Below are positions 5,285-33,218 of a DNA stretch of 64,000 nt, piece by piece (the stretch's first letter is position 1; every line of letters starts with the position of its first letter). The position numbers and the translations under genes were made by a program. Under the pieces are notes generated by a model. That model was given only the letters and a program-made list of their open reading frames with translations. It did not search any database and was not told the origin of the DNA. The DNA is taken from positions 1-64,000 of the forward strand of contig JAAVZC010000007.1 of assembly GCA_022791455.1 (NCBI GenBank), written 5' to 3'. This DNA is from Eggerthellaceae bacterium. GTDB taxonomy: Bacteria > Actinomycetota > Coriobacteriia > Coriobacteriales > Eggerthellaceae.

Positions 5285-6226
5285 TCAATGGCGAAGACGC
5301 CGAAGCAGGCTACGGATTATCTCATGGTCTTCAATCGGGGTCACTCCAAAGCACTTTTTGCCAGCATCCTTGATGGATGCACCAATATGGTATCCGCAGA
5401 CGCTATCTAACAAGAGAAACCTATCATGGAACGCGCTCGTCAGATCCAACTCAAGCGCAGGATATTGCTGGTTAAACTTGTTTACATCAGCTTTGGAAAG
5501 CCTGCATCCACGCTTTGTTGTATAGATACGCGCTCTGACGCCCTCGCCCTTCTTCGACAGCACGTTCAGAGTGTCTAGATCGACATAGCTGTCTACCAAA
5601 ACGATTTCCTCCCTGGCCGTCCTGACCAGTCGTGCCAGAAACTCGAAAGCATCGTAAATCTGACCATCGAAGAAAATTGCTTGACTGGATTCCTGAGTGC
5701 CCTTGGCCTCAAGGCGCTCGAGAACCAGGGCGAATTTCTCATCGGCAAGACGCTGGTATTCGGCCTGCCTCACCTCGATCGCATCCATTCGCTGCAAGAG
5801 CCCCGCATTCCCAACAATAAAATGTCGCATGCGGACGAAGGCGTTCATTATTTGGATGCTTATACTTATGGCGGCGTCGCTTCTCAGCACTCCCGAGAGC
5901 ATCGCAACGCCCTGTTCAGTAAAGGCGTAGGGCAGGCTACGCCTTCCGCCCCATTCACTTGAGATCACAGATTGTGATCTCAAGTTGTCAAATTCCTCTC
6001 GCGTGAGCTGGAACCGAAACTCTTCCGGAAAACGCTTTACATTTCGGCTGACCGCCTGATTGAACACACGAGTTTCCACCTCATACAACGCGGCCAAATC
6101 GCTGTCGAGCATGACCTGCCGACCACGCACCGTGTAAATTAGATCCTCCATTTGGGCTGGAACACGGCGGGGCTGCTCCGAATTGCGAACCGCACGCCCC
6201 TCGATATCTCCAAGCCCAATCTCCAA
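5285..6226 (-). CDS. ORF6N domain protein with C-terminal PLD-like region
   Basis: IYTVRGRQVMLDSDLAALYEVETRVFNQAVSRNVKRFPEEFRFQLTREEF (ORF6N); C-term FHDRFLLLD...YHIGASIKDAGKKCFG (HxRx4D, PLD-like). Confidence 0.8.
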   Translation of the reverse strand: MEIGLGDIEGRAVRNSEQPRRVPAQMEDLIYTVRGRQVMLDSDLAALYEVETRVFNQAVSRNVKRFPEEFRFQLTREEFDNLRSQSVISSEWGGRRSLPYAFTEQGVAMLSGVLRSDAAISISIQIMNAFVRMRHFIVGNAGLLQRMDAIEVRQAEYQRLADEKFALVLERLEAKGTQESSQAIFFDGQIYDAFEFLARLVRTAREEIVLVDSYVDLDTLNVLSKKGEGVRARIYTTKRGCRLSKADVNKFNQQYPALELDLTSAFHDRFLLLDSVCGYHIGASIKDAGKKCFGVTPIEDHEIIRSLLRRLRH

Positions 6227-6691
6227 CTAAAGTTCAACCTCCCCGTAAGCAAAGCCGTATTCTTCCTCTTGCCATGCGAAAAATTCTTCGCAATCACATA
6301 CACGAATGAGATCCTCCGGGAAGTCGCTTCGGTTACGAGTAATCACGGCGTCGGCACCAATCGCCAAGGCTGTCTCAACAAGGAGCCAGTTTTCCGGGTC
6401 CTTCCAGGAAGCAGCCAACATGAGGTCCACCTCGCGGTCCGACACCGGGAATACGTCCACGAAGGTGCGCAGCAGGCGCAGGCGCTGCAACACATCGTCC
6501 ATCTCGCTGCGTTTGCCGCCATCCGAAAGAACGCAGATCAGATCGATCATCTGGGAAGACGATACCCAGAGGTCGAACTCCCCCACCTTGCCGCAGAGCA
6601 TGAGGAGCCGCGCCTTCTCGTAGAAAGGCGCTCGTTCATTCAGGAAATCAATAACGATATTCGTATCCAGGAGCAGTTTCAGCCGTCCCAT
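6227..6691 (-). CDS. PIN domain ribonuclease toxin (VapC-like)
   Basis: MGRLKLLLDTNIVIDFLNERAPFYEKA; ADAVITRNRSDFP; abuts antitoxin-like gene. Confidence 0.8.
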   Translation of the reverse strand: MGRLKLLLDTNIVIDFLNERAPFYEKARLLMLCGKVGEFDLWVSSSQMIDLICVLSDGGKRSEMDDVLQRLRLLRTFVDVFPVSDREVDLMLAASWKDPENWLLVETALAIGADAVITRNRSDFPEDLIRVCDCEEFFAWQEEEYGFAYGEVEL

Positions 6692-6988
6692 TTAGAGCAA
6701 CTCCCGCGCCGCCAACCGATCCCTTTTGATTTCCGCCTTCGACATTGAATCAAAGCGAGAGGAGCGGGGCGAAGAGAGCTCATCGATGAATGCCGCCGCC
6801 TCTTTCCACCGGTCAGCGGGAACCCGTTCCGAGCCTTCGACGAGAAACGCAGCGTTTCCGGCTTCGATCATGCGGTCGAACAGGGCGTTAATGGCCTGAG
6901 AGACATTGAGCCCCTCCCGCTCAAGCACCCGCAATCCGCGAGCCTTCTTCTCTTCCGACATCCGCCCTGTAACCATGACGCTGTTCAT
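6692..6988 (-). CDS. RelB/DinJ-like antitoxin
   Basis: MNSVMVTGRMSEEKKARGLRVLEREGLNVSQAINALFDRMIE (RHH-like); ends one base before PIN gene. Confidence 0.7.
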   Translation of the reverse strand: MNSVMVTGRMSEEKKARGLRVLEREGLNVSQAINALFDRMIEAGNAAFLVEGSERVPADRWKEAAAFIDELSSPRSSRFDSMSKAEIKRDRLAARELL

Positions 6989-7095
6989 AATCAGCCTTTC
7001 TAAAGTTGTACAACGCATATTGTACAACATATGAACGAAGACTACCAGCTCGTCGCAGCAGGCCGGAATGCAGCTTATTCAGCAAAGGCTGTAAA

Positions 7096-8064
7096 TTATC
7101 GCACCGCGGTCAAAACATCCACTATTTCCTGCGTCAGCGCTTTTTGTTGGGTTGCGGTCAGCTCATCAGAAGTTCGTATGACAAGAGTGCCAACCACTTC
7201 GTGCGATCCAGATGAAAACATGCCCGCCCCGTCAAAAGAAGCGAGATAGGCATCCCGCCTTTCTGCATCTTCCACATTTGGAAACACCTCAATTGCGCCC
7301 CCGCCGCTCGTGCCGACCTCAATCACATCTTCCTTGCCTTCTTCGATATACAGGGAAGACCAATCAACTTGCTCATCGCGGAAATAGATACAACCGACAT
7401 ACCCTCCGGATTTGTTAAGTTTCCCATTAGGGTCATGGTCCTCCGTGACAGCCGCTATTTCTGAAATACTCCCTATCCCAAGAATCCTCTCCATAATGAA
7501 GTCGTCAGTTGGAGCCGTCACTTGCTTCAAGCTCTGGATACTGTCCTCGTAGCTGCCCAGCGCAACCTTCAATGCGTCAATCTCTTGCGAGTAATCCGGC
7601 ACGACTGGGATATCTGGAATTTGGGCAGCGGATAAACGGGCCTCGAGCTCTGCCGCCTCTTCAATTATCGCCTCTAAATCAGATCGCCCCATGTCGTCGC
7701 TCATAGACATAGGCTGCTCTTGCGGCAAGCTATCCGGAACTCGGCTCAGCCCATCCTGAACAGATTTCATTGCGTTCTTCAGCTCGGTGAGCGTATTGGA
7801 ATCAAAGGGTTCTTCGCCCTTATTAATAACCGCTTGAGCTGCCTTCACTTCGGCCAACGCAAGACTATTCGCAGCTTCTATATCCTCAACAGCGCTATTG
7901 TAGGGATTGATTTCTGCATTGTAGTTCGCAATCGCTTCATTGCAATGCTCAACCGCCTCCGCCGCTTCTTCTCGTAACTGGTCGGAACAACCGATCAACG
8001 ACATCGATGCGATCAGCATCATCGGAATTAGAAGCTTCTTCACTTTAGATATCGTCCCTACCAT
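7096..8064 (-). CDS. Putative lipoprotein, coiled-coil rich
   Basis: MVGTISKVKKLLIPMMLIASMSLIGC lipobox; tightly spaced downstream of SPFH gene. Confidence 0.7.
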   Translation of the reverse strand: MVGTISKVKKLLIPMMLIASMSLIGCSDQLREEAAEAVEHCNEAIANYNAEINPYNSAVEDIEAANSLALAEVKAAQAVINKGEEPFDSNTLTELKNAMKSVQDGLSRVPDSLPQEQPMSMSDDMGRSDLEAIIEEAAELEARLSAAQIPDIPVVPDYSQEIDALKVALGSYEDSIQSLKQVTAPTDDFIMERILGIGSISEIAAVTEDHDPNGKLNKSGGYVGCIYFRDEQVDWSSLYIEEGKEDVIEVGTSGGGAIEVFPNVEDAERRDAYLASFDGAGMFSSGSHEVVGTLVIRTSDELTATQQKALTQEIVDVLTAVR

Positions 8065-25832: not shown

Positions 25833-26441
25833 ATGTTCGTCACGTGCCTCGACCTTGAAGGGGTTCTGGTTCCCGAAATTTGGATTGAGTTTTCGCAGGC
25901 CACCGGCATCCCGGAGCTGGCTCGCACCACCCGCGACGAGCCGGACTACGACAAGCTGATGCAGTTCCGCCTGGACATCTTGAAGGAGCACGGGCTGGGC
26001 ATCGCGCAAATTCAGGAGGTCATCGCCACGCTGGATCCGCTGCCGGGAGCGCGGGAATTTCTGGACAAGGTGCGCGATCTGGGCCAACTGATCATCATCT
26101 CCGACACGTTTTCCCAGTTCGCGAAGCCGCTGATGGAGAAGCTGGGCATGCCCACCATCTTCTGCAACGAGCTGGAGGTAGACGAGGACGGAACCATCGT
26201 GGGCTGGCACATGCGCTGCACGCCCTCGAAGCTGACCACGGTGCGTGCGCTGCAGAGCTGCGGCTTCGAGACCATCGCCGCCGGCGACTCCTTCAACGAC
26301 CTGCAGATGATCCAGAACAGCAAGGCGGGCTTCCTGTTCCGCAGCACCGACCAGCTGAAGGCGGACTACCCAGAAATCCCCGCGCTGGAAACCTACGACG
26401 AGCTCTACGCCGCCATAGCCGAAGCCGCCCAAAACTGCTAA
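25833..26441 (+). CDS. thrH: Bifunctional phosphoserine phosphatase/homoserine phosphotransferase ThrH
   Basis: MFVTCLDLEGVLVPEIWIEFSQATGIPELARTTRDEPDYDKLMQFRLDIL; AAGDSFNDLQMI. Confidence 0.9.
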   Translation: MFVTCLDLEGVLVPEIWIEFSQATGIPELARTTRDEPDYDKLMQFRLDILKEHGLGIAQIQEVIATLDPLPGAREFLDKVRDLGQLIIISDTFSQFAKPLMEKLGMPTIFCNELEVDEDGTIVGWHMRCTPSKLTTVRALQSCGFETIAAGDSFNDLQMIQNSKAGFLFRSTDQLKADYPEIPALETYDELYAAIAEAAQNC

Positions 26442-26450
26442 CACCCTCCG

Positions 26451-26584
26451 TTGTCATCCTGAGCGGAGGCCGAAGGCCGGAGTCGAAGGATCTCCGCGGC
26501 TGGGTGAGATCCTTCGACTCCGCGCTGCGCGCTCCGCTCAGGATGACAAAGGGGTTGCGCGGTTCGCTCCGCTCAGGATGACAA
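26451..26584. repeat. Dispersed palindromic repeat, family A, with duplicated right tail
   Basis: Full element to ~26549, then gcgcggttcgctccgctcaggatgacaa repeated 35 bp later. Confidence 0.9.
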
Positions 26585-27418
26585 GGGGAGACGAGAGAAA
26601 ACCAGGTACTCGTTCATTTTGTTGGTGCGGCCGTCGGCTTGGAAGCGGTCGAGCAGCTGAGCATTTCCATCGACCGTCTGGATCAGGCGGTCGATTTCTT
26701 TTTCCGAGAAGCTATGGCAGTAGCGGAAAGAGCCGCACGCTTCGCCCCAGCCCAGCAGGTAGTCGCCCGGCTCCAAGGTACCCGTCAGCTCTTCGCGCGC
26801 CAGCAGCGCCTGGGTCGTCGAGCGCTCCGCCTTCTGGCGCAGCGGCTCGTGGTCGGCGAAGCGCCAAAGCGAAACGGCCACCAAGCCACCCGGGCGCACC
26901 AGCTGAAGCAGCGCCTCCAGTAAGCGCGCACGGCGCTCCTCTCCCGGCACATGGTGAAAGAAGCCGAAGCAAACCACCAGGTCGAAGTGGTTCTCGCCCT
27001 CGTTTCCCGGCAACGGGGCCGATCGTTCATCCGGCAAGGGCAGCGTCCCGCAACCCGGCACCGCCTTTTCCTCACCAGGCTGCGCCGCCGATTCCGCGGC
27101 AAACAGCGCATCAAGCACGTCGCGGCGCTGGACCTTCGCACCCAACGCCGCCGCCTCGGCCAGAAGCTGCTCGTTGCCGTCCCAGCCGCAGTAGGCAATG
27201 GCGGCTTCGGGGAACTTCTCCCCCAGAAACGAGAGGAACCGTCCGTTGCCGCAGGCCACATCCGCCACCCGCAACGGCGAGGACGGCTCGCCCAAAGCGG
27301 CAGCCACCCGTTCCCACCCCGGCCACGCGCTTTGGCGCGTCGCGGAGAACGATTCGGCGTTGGCGGCGTAGAAATCTGCCGTCATCTCGGTCAATATGCG
27401 GGCAATCTGCTGATTCAT
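26573..27418 (-). CDS. Class I SAM methyltransferase, Trm9/ALKBH8-like
   Basis: MNQQIARILTEMTADFYAANAESFSATRQSAWPGWERV; VADVACGNGRFLSFL; CFGFFHHV; FRYCHSFSEKEIDRLI. 3' end lies in repeat tail. Confidence 0.75.
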   Translation of the reverse strand: MNQQIARILTEMTADFYAANAESFSATRQSAWPGWERVAAALGEPSSPLRVADVACGNGRFLSFLGEKFPEAAIAYCGWDGNEQLLAEAAALGAKVQRRDVLDALFAAESAAQPGEEKAVPGCGTLPLPDERSAPLPGNEGENHFDLVVCFGFFHHVPGEERRARLLEALLQLVRPGGLVAVSLWRFADHEPLRQKAERSTTQALLAREELTGTLEPGDYLLGWGEACGSFRYCHSFSEKEIDRLIQTVDGNAQLLDRFQADGRTNKMNEYLVFSRLPLSS

Positions 27419-27474
27419 GATGCGCCATTTTACTAAAATCAAAGGCAGCAACCGACAACACAGAAAGCGGGAAC

Positions 27475-29340
27475 ATGGGCGAACAGGAGCAGTGGCACTC
27501 ATTGCCGGAGGGCATCGAGGCGGTGCTGGCGGACGTGGCGGCGCTCGTGCGCGACTGCCCGGACGCCACCATGGGCCAGGTGAACCAGGTGCTGGGGCGC
27601 CACAACAGAGCCGCCGGCGAGCCCCAACGGCGCTTCGCGAAGAAGCACCTGCTGCCCGGATTTCTGCGGCTGCGGAAAGAGCAGCCGGAACAGCTGGCCC
27701 TGTGGGGGCTGGACGAGGCGGCCCAAAAGCGCCTGTTCGCCCTGCTGCGCATGAAGCCGCGGCGCACCGCTTCCGGCGTGGCCACCATCACGGTGCTCAC
27801 CAAACCCTGGCCCTGCTCTTCCAACTGCGATTACTGCCCCAACGACGTGCGCATGCCCAAGAGCTACTTGGCAGACGAACCCGCCTGCCAGCGGGCGGAG
27901 CGCAACTGCTTCGACCCCTATCTGCAGGTGCACGCACGGCTGCACACCTTGAACCAGATGGGCCACCCCACCGACAAAGTGGAGCTCATCGTGCTGGGGG
28001 GCACCTGGAGCGACTACCCCCTCCCCTACCAAATGTGGTTCATGACCGAGCTGTTCGCCGCGCTGAACGACGGCGACAGCGCCGCGGCCCAAAAGCGGGC
28101 AGAAGAGCGGCGCGAACAGTACCGCCGGGCGGGGGTGCCTTGGGAAAAGGACGCGGCAGAGGCCGCCTGCGCCGCCGCCCAAGCAGCCGTGAACGGGGGC
28201 GAGACCACCTACAACCAGGCAGTTTCCCACCTGTACGGCACCGATGGCGGCTCCCCCGAAATTGCCGGCTGGCGCGAAGCGGCCCTGTGGCAGCAGGGCA
28301 CCTGGGAGGCACTCGAAGCGGCCCAGACCGCCAACGAGACCGCCGGCAGCCGCTGCGTGGGGCTGGTAGTGGAAACGCGCCCCACCCTGGTGAACCCGGA
28401 AACCCTGACGCAGCTACGCCGTTTCGGCTGCACGAAGGTGCAGATGGGCATCCAGACGCTGAACCCCGCCGTGGCCGCCGCCAACAATCGCGCACAAGAT
28501 TTGGACGCCATCGCGCAAGCCTTCGCGCTGCTGCGGCAGTTCGGCTTCAAGATTCACGCCCACTTCATGGCGAATCTGCAGGGGGCCACGCCGGCGGCGG
28601 ACCTCGCCGACTTCCGCCAACTGGTGGAGGACGCCCGATTCAAGCCGGACGAGGTGAAACTCTACCCCTGCGTGCTGGTAGGCGGAACGAAGCTGGAAGA
28701 GCGCTACCACCAGGGGCTTTGGCAGCCTTACCCGGAAGAAGAGCTGGTGGACCTGCTGGCGGACAACGTGCTGGCAGCACCGCCCTACCTGCGCATCTCC
28801 CGCATGATCCGAGACATTTCCGCGCCAGACATCCTTGCGGGCAGCAAGAAGACGAACCTGCGCCAGATGGTGGAAAACCGCGTGCGCGAGCGGGGCGCCG
28901 CCGCCGAAGTGCAGGAGATTCGCTTCCGCGAAATTGCTGGCAGCCGCCCCGACCCTGCCGAGCTGCAGCTGAACACCGTGACCTACGAGGCGGTCGGCTC
29001 CACCGAGCACTTCCTGCAATGGATCACCCCCGAAAACAAAATAGCCGCCTTCCTGCGGCTTTCCCTTCCCGAAGGGGGCAGCGAAGCCATGATTCGGGAG
29101 GTACATGTGTATGGGACGGCGGCGGAAATCCACGAGCCGGGGCAGAGCGCGCAGCACACGGGGCTCGGCCGGGCGCTCGTGACCCGCGCCTGCCAGATAG
29201 CGCAAGAGGCCGGCTTCACGCGCATCAAGGTCATCAGCGCCGTGGGCACACGCGAATACTACCGCAGCCTCGGCTTCACCGACGACGGCCTGTACCAGGC
29301 AAAAGACCTTCCAGCTACCTCGTCATCTCGAGCGAAGTGA
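27475..29340 (+). CDS. elp3: Elp3-family tRNA uridine(34) modification enzyme (radical SAM + GNAT)
   Basis: TVLTKPWPCSSNCDYCPNDVRMPKSYLADEPACQRAERNCFDPYLQ; ELIVLGGTWSDYP; C-term GNAT HTGLGRALVTRACQIAQEAGFTRIKVISAVGTREYYRSLGF. Confidence 0.9.
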   Translation: MGEQEQWHSLPEGIEAVLADVAALVRDCPDATMGQVNQVLGRHNRAAGEPQRRFAKKHLLPGFLRLRKEQPEQLALWGLDEAAQKRLFALLRMKPRRTASGVATITVLTKPWPCSSNCDYCPNDVRMPKSYLADEPACQRAERNCFDPYLQVHARLHTLNQMGHPTDKVELIVLGGTWSDYPLPYQMWFMTELFAALNDGDSAAAQKRAEERREQYRRAGVPWEKDAAEAACAAAQAAVNGGETTYNQAVSHLYGTDGGSPEIAGWREAALWQQGTWEALEAAQTANETAGSRCVGLVVETRPTLVNPETLTQLRRFGCTKVQMGIQTLNPAVAAANNRAQDLDAIAQAFALLRQFGFKIHAHFMANLQGATPAADLADFRQLVEDARFKPDEVKLYPCVLVGGTKLEERYHQGLWQPYPEEELVDLLADNVLAAPPYLRISRMIRDISAPDILAGSKKTNLRQMVENRVRERGAAAEVQEIRFREIAGSRPDPAELQLNTVTYEAVGSTEHFLQWITPENKIAAFLRLSLPEGGSEAMIREVHVYGTAAEIHEPGQSAQHTGLGRALVTRACQIAQEAGFTRIKVISAVGTREYYRSLGFTDDGLYQAKDLPATSSSRAK

Positions 29341-29518
29341 GCGTAGCGAACGTAGTCGAGAGATCTTCGCGACCCCTGCAGTGTTTCAGGGTCGGAAAGA
29401 TCTCTCCACTCCGGCGCTTCGCGCCTCCGGTCGAGATGACGAGGGGGTTATGAGACTTCGCGCCTCCGGTCGAGATGACGAGGGGGTTATGAGGCTTCGC
29501 GCCTCCGGTCGAGACGAC
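29321..29518. repeat. Dispersed palindromic repeat, family B, with tail repeated three times at 39-bp period
   Basis: cgtcatctcgagcgaagtgagcg...; tcgagatgac at 29430/29469 and tcgagacgac at 29508; unit cttcgcgcctccggtcgagatgacgagggggttatgag. Confidence 0.88.
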
Positions 29519-31910: not shown

Positions 31911-33218
31911 TTATTCGAAGGCAATCGGGGGCGCCTGCGAAGCGAGTTCGACTTTCAGTTCCCGCAGGCCGCGGGCTTCCTCTTCGCCGGTCACGATATT
32001 GTAGGAAACGCACGGGAAAAGCGGGGCGCCGTCGCTGCTCAGAACCCCTTCTAATGCCGACAGCCAACGCGGATGGAAAGCGGTGCAATTCGCCGCGGCG
32101 TCCTCCAGAAAGTCGCTGCACCCGGCCGCCTTGAGCGCTTCGCGCGCGGGTACCCTGTCGGCGCCGAACACGAGCGCTGTCTTCAGGAAGAAGTCGTTGT
32201 AGTCGAAAGCGTAGCGGGAATCGATAGTTGCGAAGGGCTCGTTAAGGTTGCGCACCTGAGCCCGATGCTTGTTCTCCAGCGAGCAATAGTGCAGGCCTAG
32301 GCGAAGCCCCTGCTCGCACGCCCACAGCATCAGCTCCAGACAGGCCTCTTCGCTCCCCTCCACCGCCAGCGCACCGGCGTAGCTGTAGTCGAAGGCCACG
32401 CGGTAAGGCGGGTTGCGCAGGGTGAGCCCCATAGATTCGTACACCGGCCAGTTCCACATGGCGTAGGTGAACTCCAGCAGGTTGATGCCGTCCACCCCCA
32501 AATTGTCCAGCCGCCGCAACAGAGTGCGCATGAACTCCTCGGTTCCAGGAATAACCGGCATCTCCACCATAACCGCGGGGATGAGCTCGCGGGCCAGGGC
32601 AATGTTGGCCAGCACCTTCTCCAGCAGCGGCTCGGGGTCGTCTTGCTTCACCGAGAAGCGCACTTCGTCCAGCCCCGCGTCTCGCAGCTGCTCCAGCAAC
32701 GGGCGGGTGAGCAGGTCGCCAGAGGTGTAGATGCGCAGGTGCGCCTTCGGGAACAGCTCTCGCGCTCGCTGAAAGAAGGCCACCGTCTCGTCTGCCATGA
32801 GCAGCGGCTCGCCGCCGGTGAGGGCCACGGCGGTGGGGTTCGGCTCTTCAGAGAACAGGTCGTCCAGCTGGCGGCGCCACGGGAACGGGTGCTGGCAGTA
32901 GTAGACGAATTCCTCCTGATTGGGGTTGAAGCAGAAGAAGCAGTCCCGGTGGCAGTTGTTGGTGAGCGCGAAGCTGCGGCTGACACAATCGCCGGTGCAG
33001 GCCACGCAAGCAGGACTCAGAAAGCCCCAGGCCACGCTGGCACCACCATTGCGAATTTGGCCGCCGGCCGCTTCGATGCGCTCCATCAGCTGGCGGGCAC
33101 GGGACCGCTCCTCATCGCGCGGGGCGAAGGTCACCCCCGTGGCCTCGATGGCGGCCCGGTGCTCTTCTTCAATCTCGCTATAGAGCGCAATGGCTTTCTG
33201 CGCGGCCGTGTTCGTCAT
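31911..33218 (-). CDS. Radical SAM protein with extra cysteine clusters
   Basis: CVACTGDCVSRSFALTNNCHRDCFFCFNPNQEEF (CxxxCxxC preceded by CxxCxxxC); TGGEPLLMADE. Confidence 0.85.
   Translation of the reverse strand: MTNTAAQKAIALYSEIEEEHRAAIEATGVTFAPRDEERSRARQLMERIEAAGGQIRNGGASVAWGFLSPACVACTGDCVSRSFALTNNCHRDCFFCFNPNQEEFVYYCQHPFPWRRQLDDLFSEEPNPTAVALTGGEPLLMADETVAFFQRARELFPKAHLRIYTSGDLLTRPLLEQLRDAGLDEVRFSVKQDDPEPLLEKVLANIALARELIPAVMVEMPVIPGTEEFMRTLLRRLDNLGVDGINLLEFTYAMWNWPVYESMGLTLRNPPYRVAFDYSYAGALAVEGSEEACLELMLWACEQGLRLGLHYCSLENKHRAQVRNLNEPFATIDSRYAFDYNDFFLKTALVFGADRVPAREALKAAGCSDFLEDAAANCTAFHPRWLSALEGVLSSDGAPLFPCVSYNIVTGEEEARGLRELKVELASQAPPIAFE

Follow-up and report, generated by a model that had tools for sequence, protein, structure and literature searches.

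The window analyzed here is a 64,000-nucleotide stretch of DNA from an Eggerthellaceae bacterium (order Coriobacteriales; GenBank assembly GCA_022791455.1, contig JAAVZC010000007.1, positions 1 to 64,000). It carries a head-to-head gene pair, in which a Trm9-like class I S-adenosylmethionine (SAM)-dependent methyltransferase (26573-27418, minus strand; 281 residues, ATG at 27418), a proposed carboxyl O-methyltransferase of 5-carboxymethyluridine at the tRNA wobble position (cm5U34), is encoded divergently from Elp3, a radical SAM and GNAT protein predicted to be a carboxymethyltransferase of the wobble uridine U34 (27475-29340, plus strand; 621 residues). The two start codons are separated by a 56-bp divergent intergenic region (27419-27474), a scan of which found no consensus sigma-70 promoter. 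An alternative upstream start of the methyltransferase gene lies at 27502, and homologues favor 27418. An earlier note on this DNA, made from the sequence alone, had paired the two genes at these coordinates and with this spacing; both proved exact when the genes were relocated in the window, and the three methyltransferase motifs that it quoted (ESFSATRQSAWPGWERV, VADVACGNGRFL, and FRYCHSFSEKEIDRL) were found in the translation. Bacteria typically modify U34 to 5-carboxymethylaminomethyluridine (cmnm5U) or 5-methylaminomethyluridine (mnm5U) through MnmE-MnmG, and eukaryotes and some archaea form 5-methoxycarbonylmethyluridine (mcm5U) through Elp3 and Trm9. The pair described here is real, is conserved across two bacterial phyla, and is new for bacteria, and it is a variant of a known pathway.

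Judged by its sequence, the plus-strand protein is Elp3. It matches TIGR01211 over its full length with 424.5 bits against a curated cut-off of 350 and contains the Radical_SAM, Radical_SAM_C, and GNAT (Acetyltransf_1) domains. Its closest solved structures are the Elp3 proteins of Dehalococcoides, archaea, and eukaryotes, with that of Dehalococcoides being the best match (E value of 9.6e-92). Three motifs are invariant in an alignment of 13 Elp3 sequences from the window's order, Patescibacteria, Aquicultoria-type Actinomycetota, and Dehalococcoides mccartyi (motif coordinates on the plus strand): the iron-sulfur motif C114-x3-C118-x2-C121 (CxxxCxxC; 27814-27837), the K395-L-Y397 motif (28657-28665), and the GNAT acetyl-CoA motif Q560-H-x-G-L-G (29152-29169). 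K395 and Y397 correspond to K302 and Y304 of M. infernus, which are essential in archaeal Elp3 (PMC13315578). The protein is predicted to form cm5U34 on tRNA. In the same alignment, about 80 extra residues are inserted into the radical SAM domain of the window Elp3 (residues 200 to 278; 28072-28308, plus strand), a feature that is confined to the window's order and is not found in the aligned Elp3s of Patescibacteria, the Aquicultoria type, or D. mccartyi; the window Elp3 differs in this respect from the solved bacterial Elp3 of D. mccartyi (5l7j and 6ia6).

The minus-strand protein matches generic methyltransferase domains alone in Pfam (Methyltransf_12/23/25/11), and its NCBIfam matches are generic or far below the cut-offs. 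A single-sequence phmmer search against the PDB ranked Trm9 second, after a type-12 methyltransferase, and family profiles were therefore needed. With a profile of 30 order-level orthologues, yeast Trm9 (5cm2, 5cm2_Z) was the top match in the whole PDB (2.9e-7), and it was also the top PDB match for profiles of 4 Aquicultoria-type sequences (1.7e-18), 12 mixed sequences (3.7e-14), and 32 sequences including those of Patescibacteria (2.2e-27, 20 bits above the runner-up, 3sm3). One Patescibacteria methyltransferase used alone likewise gave Trm9 as its first match (1.4e-10). The match of the 32-sequence profile to Trm9 extends past the SAM-binding core into the C-terminal region with the DxxxPW and RYxH motifs, up to profile position 223 of 234, and most other class I matches end before this region. 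A control search with a generic Chloroflexota methyltransferase gave no Trm9 match at an E value of ≤0.01, and the explanation that Trm9 is a promiscuous top match was rejected on this basis. The AlphaFold model of the methyltransferase has a predicted local distance difference test (pLDDT) score of 90, and Foldseek placed Trm9 second, with a target-normalized TM-score of 0.74, the highest listed. The best profile match in the PDB is thus Trm9 and not an unrelated methyltransferase family, so that the Trm9/ALKBH8-like label of the earlier note holds for Trm9 proper and does not extend to the AlkB-type hydroxylation of ALKBH8.

Yeast Trm9 is severely impaired in tRNA binding and catalysis by the substitutions R29A, H115A, R241A, Y243A, and N271A (PMC5372719). 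The positions were mapped onto the bacterial enzymes through alignments and spacing (R29 and H115 of yeast Trm9 are 86 residues apart, as are R5 and H91 in 5cm2), and conservation was scored over 54 bacterial methyltransferase sequences. Four of the five mutationally tested residues (R29, H115, R241, and N271) are kept in the window protein, with codons on the minus strand. R28 of the FS-x-TR motif (27335-27337), equivalent to R29, is invariant. Conservation is at least 90% for H155, the first His of the HH motif (26954-26956) and the equivalent of H115; for R232 of RYxH (26723-26725), the equivalent of R241; and for N269 (26612-26614), the probable equivalent of N271. The last assignment is based on spacing and motif because the 5cm2 alignment ends just before N271. 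Eukaryotic Trm9 needs its partner Trm112. No convincing Trm112 gene (PF03966) was found in the 61 genomes of the window's order, and none at all in the genome of the window; seven weak PF03966 matches are fragments within frames of 320 to 795 residues. Since no Trm112 was found, the bacterial enzyme is designated Trm9-like, rather than Trm9, and Trm112-free, and it appears to work without Trm112.

The two genes are inherited together well beyond the window. Both are present in 45 of the 61 genomes of the order, 15 genomes have neither, and only 1 (G043) has Elp3 alone, as a fragment running off a contig end (Fisher's exact test, P = 2e-13, ignoring shared ancestry). Two of the 45 were counted with incomplete genes, namely, G003, which has remnants of both, and G047, which has only a C-terminal piece of Elp3. 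In 38 genomes the two genes are no more than 6 kb apart, being divergently oriented in 33, in tandem in 4, and convergent in 1; in five others they are on different contigs, and in two they are far apart on one contig, with both still kept. In G003 (locus L091, G003:C9:164000-176000, approximately 5536 to 7300), both genes are 5'-truncated at the shared intergenic region and lack methyltransferase residues 1 to 222 and Elp3 residues 1 to 211, which fits a joint loss by a single deletion that disabled both genes. Among 247 Actinomycetota genomes, Elp3 and a strong methyltransferase match were each found in 19, and the two sets of 19 genomes are identical. Four of these 19 are outside the order, and their sequences match Candidatus Subteraquimicrobium (class Aquicultoria) and another metagenome-assembled genome labeled Actinomycetes. 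The genome of the window is itself from Actinomycetota, whose sample includes these Subteraquimicrobium-type genomes, and its gene content points to Coriobacteriia.

When GTDB contigs were scanned with these non-order Actinomycetota sequences, 41 loci were retrieved, mostly from Patescibacteria. In 36, among which are one Subteraquimicrobium locus and one from a further actinomycete, the methyltransferase has Elp3 immediately upstream and divergent; three of the 39 loci whose methyltransferase is clear lack such an Elp3, two of them at contig edges (L114 and L133; the third is L121). In 211 Patescibacteria genomes, Elp3 was found in 77, the methyltransferase in 59, and both in 56, and 50 of these 56 pairs are neighbors, of which 49 are divergent; the median distance separating the matched segments is 123 bp. 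Pairwise protein distances of the two families are correlated over 65 pairs (Mantel r of 0.93 overall, 0.88 for Patescibacteria and the Aquicultoria type, and 0.52 for the order), which shows a shared history but not by itself a shared function. The linkage is very strong and the pairing is far beyond chance; the association with Elp3 that the earlier note saw at one locus recurs across both Actinomycetota and Patescibacteria, the only phyla in which bacterial Trm9-like sequences were found in this analysis.

The presence or absence of mnmE and mnmG, raised in the same note as a check, could also be settled. No match to MnmG or to MnmE over the cut-off was found in any of the 61 genomes of the order, including that of the window, and the leftover matches are partial and well below the cut-off. 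MnmG was likewise not found over the cut-off in any of the 36 genomes behind the scanned GTDB loci. Among the 211 Patescibacteria genomes, five have MnmG, and none of the five has Elp3. The Elp3 pair and MnmG are therefore mutually exclusive where searched, and the lack of MnmG in the carriers, together with that of MnmE in the window's order, suggests that the pair fills the role of cmnm5U/mnm5U. Fifteen genomes of the order have none of Elp3, MnmG, and MnmE over the cut-offs (G005, G009, G013, G026, G028, G033, G038, G044, G046, G048, G050, G052, G054, G055, and G056), and thus U34 may be left unmodified at C5, or modified by another route, in some of them.

The gene identities, conserved residues, linkage, co-occurrence, and absence of MnmG/MnmE and Trm112 were all computed. 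We consider it likely that the pair constitutes a two-enzyme bacterial wobble-uridine pathway, Trm112-free and independent of MnmEG, that leads from U34 through cm5U34 to mcm5U34. In the first step, Elp3 would use acetyl-CoA and radical SAM chemistry to form cm5U34 on certain tRNAs and is presumed to be active without other Elongator subunits, like archaeal Elp3. In the second step, the Trm9-like enzyme would esterify the carboxylate of cm5U34 with the methyl group of SAM, yielding mcm5U34, or its 2-thiolated form (mcm5s2U34) where U34 is also thiolated. The substrate, the products cm5U and mcm5U, the tRNA targets, and the order of the steps are predictions from homology, conserved residues, and linkage.

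Several observations weigh against this pathway. The class I fold is common to many methyltransferases, so that the fold alone is indecisive; the uncharacterized methyltransferase 3sm3 ranks slightly above Trm9 in Foldseek, and the identity to Trm9 in the structural alignment is about 18%. Y243 of Trm9 is not conserved, being replaced by C234 in the window protein and mostly by Cys in the order, and the position is variable in the Aquicultoria-type and Patescibacteria sequences (Tyr, Phe, Cys, and others). With Y243 replaced and Trm112 missing in the order, catalysis may differ in detail. In addition, 21 of the 77 Elp3-bearing Patescibacteria have no methyltransferase, which indicates that Elp3 can act without it, and the P values for co-occurrence take no account of ancestry. 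MnmG alone was searched for in Patescibacteria, and the absence of MnmE covers the window's order only.

The replacement of Y243, the absence of Trm112, and the low sequence identity to Trm9 would also be consistent with a methyltransferase that belongs to the Elp3 pathway but acts on a different group, for example through methylation (N- or O-) of another U34 derivative, ribose methylation, or action on a later product, in which case the final nucleoside would not be mcm5U. This is improbable, because R29, H115, R241, and N271, which are thought to orient cm5U34, are conserved and profile comparison finds Trm9 nearest among the solved structures. It is considerably less probable still that the enzyme modifies another translation target, such as rRNA, Elp3, or another protein, and that the linkage reflects co-regulation. 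The purely generic Pfam and NCBIfam matches would suit such an enzyme, but the Trm9-specific motifs lie outside the SAM-binding core, and a methyltransferase without Elp3 is rare, being found in 0 of 45 genomes in the order and in 3 of 59 in Patescibacteria. That a generic metabolic enzyme was paired with Elp3 by an accident of local synteny can practically be dismissed: although divergent neighbors may in general persist by chance among close relatives, this divergent pair recurs in Patescibacteria, the Aquicultoria type, and the window's order with methyltransferase identities down to 21 to 28%, and genomes in which the genes are unlinked still keep both, so that the co-occurrence data contradict it.

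Set against known systems, the proposed mcm5U34 pathway resembles that of eukaryotes. The pair has in common with Elongator (Elp1-6) plus Trm9-Trm112 or ALKBH8-TRMT112 the Elp3 catalytic motifs, the equivalents of R29, H115, R241, and N271 of Trm9, and, as predicted, the same two-step chemistry. It differs in its stand-alone Elp3 (no other Elongator subunits were seen at the locus, and none were searched for), in that no Trm112 was found and Y243 is not conserved, in having no AlkB domain, and in its arrangement as one divergent unit. MnmE-MnmG-MnmC/MnmM, which form cmnm5U/mnm5U34, act on the same site, C5 of U34, with the same decoding role, but the enzymes are unrelated and MnmG is absent in the searched pair carriers. 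CmoA/CmoB/CmoM, which form uridine 5-oxyacetic acid (cmo5U) and its methyl ester (mcmo5U34), are also a bacterial U34 modification system with a class I methyltransferase fold, and CmoM forms a methyl ester. CmoA, CmoM, and UbiE-type assignments of the window methyltransferase were rejected by the profile ranking; CmoA is well below Trm9 for the order-level profile (4.1e-4 versus 2.9e-7), and no CmoM model is among the NCBIfam matches. Among archaea, Sulfolobus solfataricus has orthologues of Elp3 and Trm9 in one gene cluster, and orthologues of both are predicted in Haloferax (PMC5372719), from which (m)cm5U has been reported (PMC6367351, PMC7663514). The archaeal system, set beside the bacterial pair by description and not by direct comparison of sequences, is alike in its stand-alone Elp3, predicted Trm9 orthologue, and gene clustering (in S. 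solfataricus), but archaea have Trm112.

A 2017 review stated that no bacterial genes significantly similar to Trm112-dependent methyltransferases were detectable (PMC5372719), and a 2020 review placed bacterial Elp3 in one clade only, that of Dehalococcoides, with no evidence there of cm5U derivatives (PMC7663514). Elp3 was reported in numerous bacteria in 2026 (PMC13315578). The D. mccartyi protein has been called a rare bacterial Elp3, and no partner methyltransferase is described for it in the literature examined; no description of a bacterial Elp3-Trm9-like pair was found in the open-access literature searched. The joint occurrence of Elp3 and a Trm9-like gene in two bacterial phyla, including the reduced-genome Patescibacteria, predicts eukaryote-like anticodon chemistry in bacteria. 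Compared with yeast, in which mcm5U needs at least 15 proteins (PMC5372719), the pair would provide a minimal two-protein mcm5U system for enzymology. It further suggests that the chemistry can proceed without Trm112, and it brings forward a candidate for the missing 5-carbamoylmethyluridine (ncm5U) synthase.

This candidate was found beside Elp3 in Patescibacteria without the methyltransferase. In two such loci, a divergent protein of about 265 residues is encoded 33 to 45 bp from Elp3 (L142, 5219-6034, plus strand, and L148, 2536-3324, minus strand, in genomes G430 and G473). It has a PP-loop domain of the asparagine-synthetase type but lacks a glutaminase domain, and its PDB relatives are asparagine synthetases and CarA. 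Six strong copies were found in the 211 Patescibacteria genomes (G430, G473, G403, G534, G351, and G388), all in Elp3-bearing genomes and either beside Elp3 or at most 1 kb from it. The methyltransferase is absent from five of these six genomes, and its match in the remaining one, G388, is weak (94 bits). The position of an amidating-type enzyme where the methyltransferase would otherwise be encoded beside Elp3 is in line with a shared cm5U intermediate, and the asparagine-synthetase-like protein is a candidate for the amidating enzyme that would convert cm5U to ncm5U. We give about even chances to a broader scheme, in which U34 modification independent of MnmEG would be built around bacterial Elp3 and completed by interchangeable enzymes encoded beside it: in most carriers a Trm112-free Trm9-like methyltransferase (giving mcm5U), and in others a stand-alone PP-loop protein resembling asparagine synthetase (giving ncm5U). 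The ncm5U-forming enzyme has been described as unknown in yeast (PMC3110198), and the asparagine-synthetase-like protein would, if this scheme is true, be a first candidate for it. Other genes upstream of Elp3 in methyltransferase-less Patescibacteria encode nucleoside diphosphate kinase (three loci), SLOG, TP_methylase, and LPG_synthase_C proteins, which are probably incidental neighbors.

Around the pair in the window, a 435-residue radical SAM protein is encoded at 31911-33218 (minus strand), for which no curated NCBIfam model comes near its cut-off (the best is HxsC, with 39.9 versus 267.9 bits). The downstream neighbor of the methyltransferase gene encodes a ThrH-type phosphoserine phosphatase/homoserine phosphotransferase (25833-26441, plus strand; NF010109, 293 bits). 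Two kinds of dispersed palindromic repeats flank the pair (26448-26587 and 29318-29483), with seven and eight copies in the window versus zero expected. One repeat copy covers or borders the end of the Elp3 reading frame (its last residues and stop codon), and the stop codon of the methyltransferase gene falls inside another.

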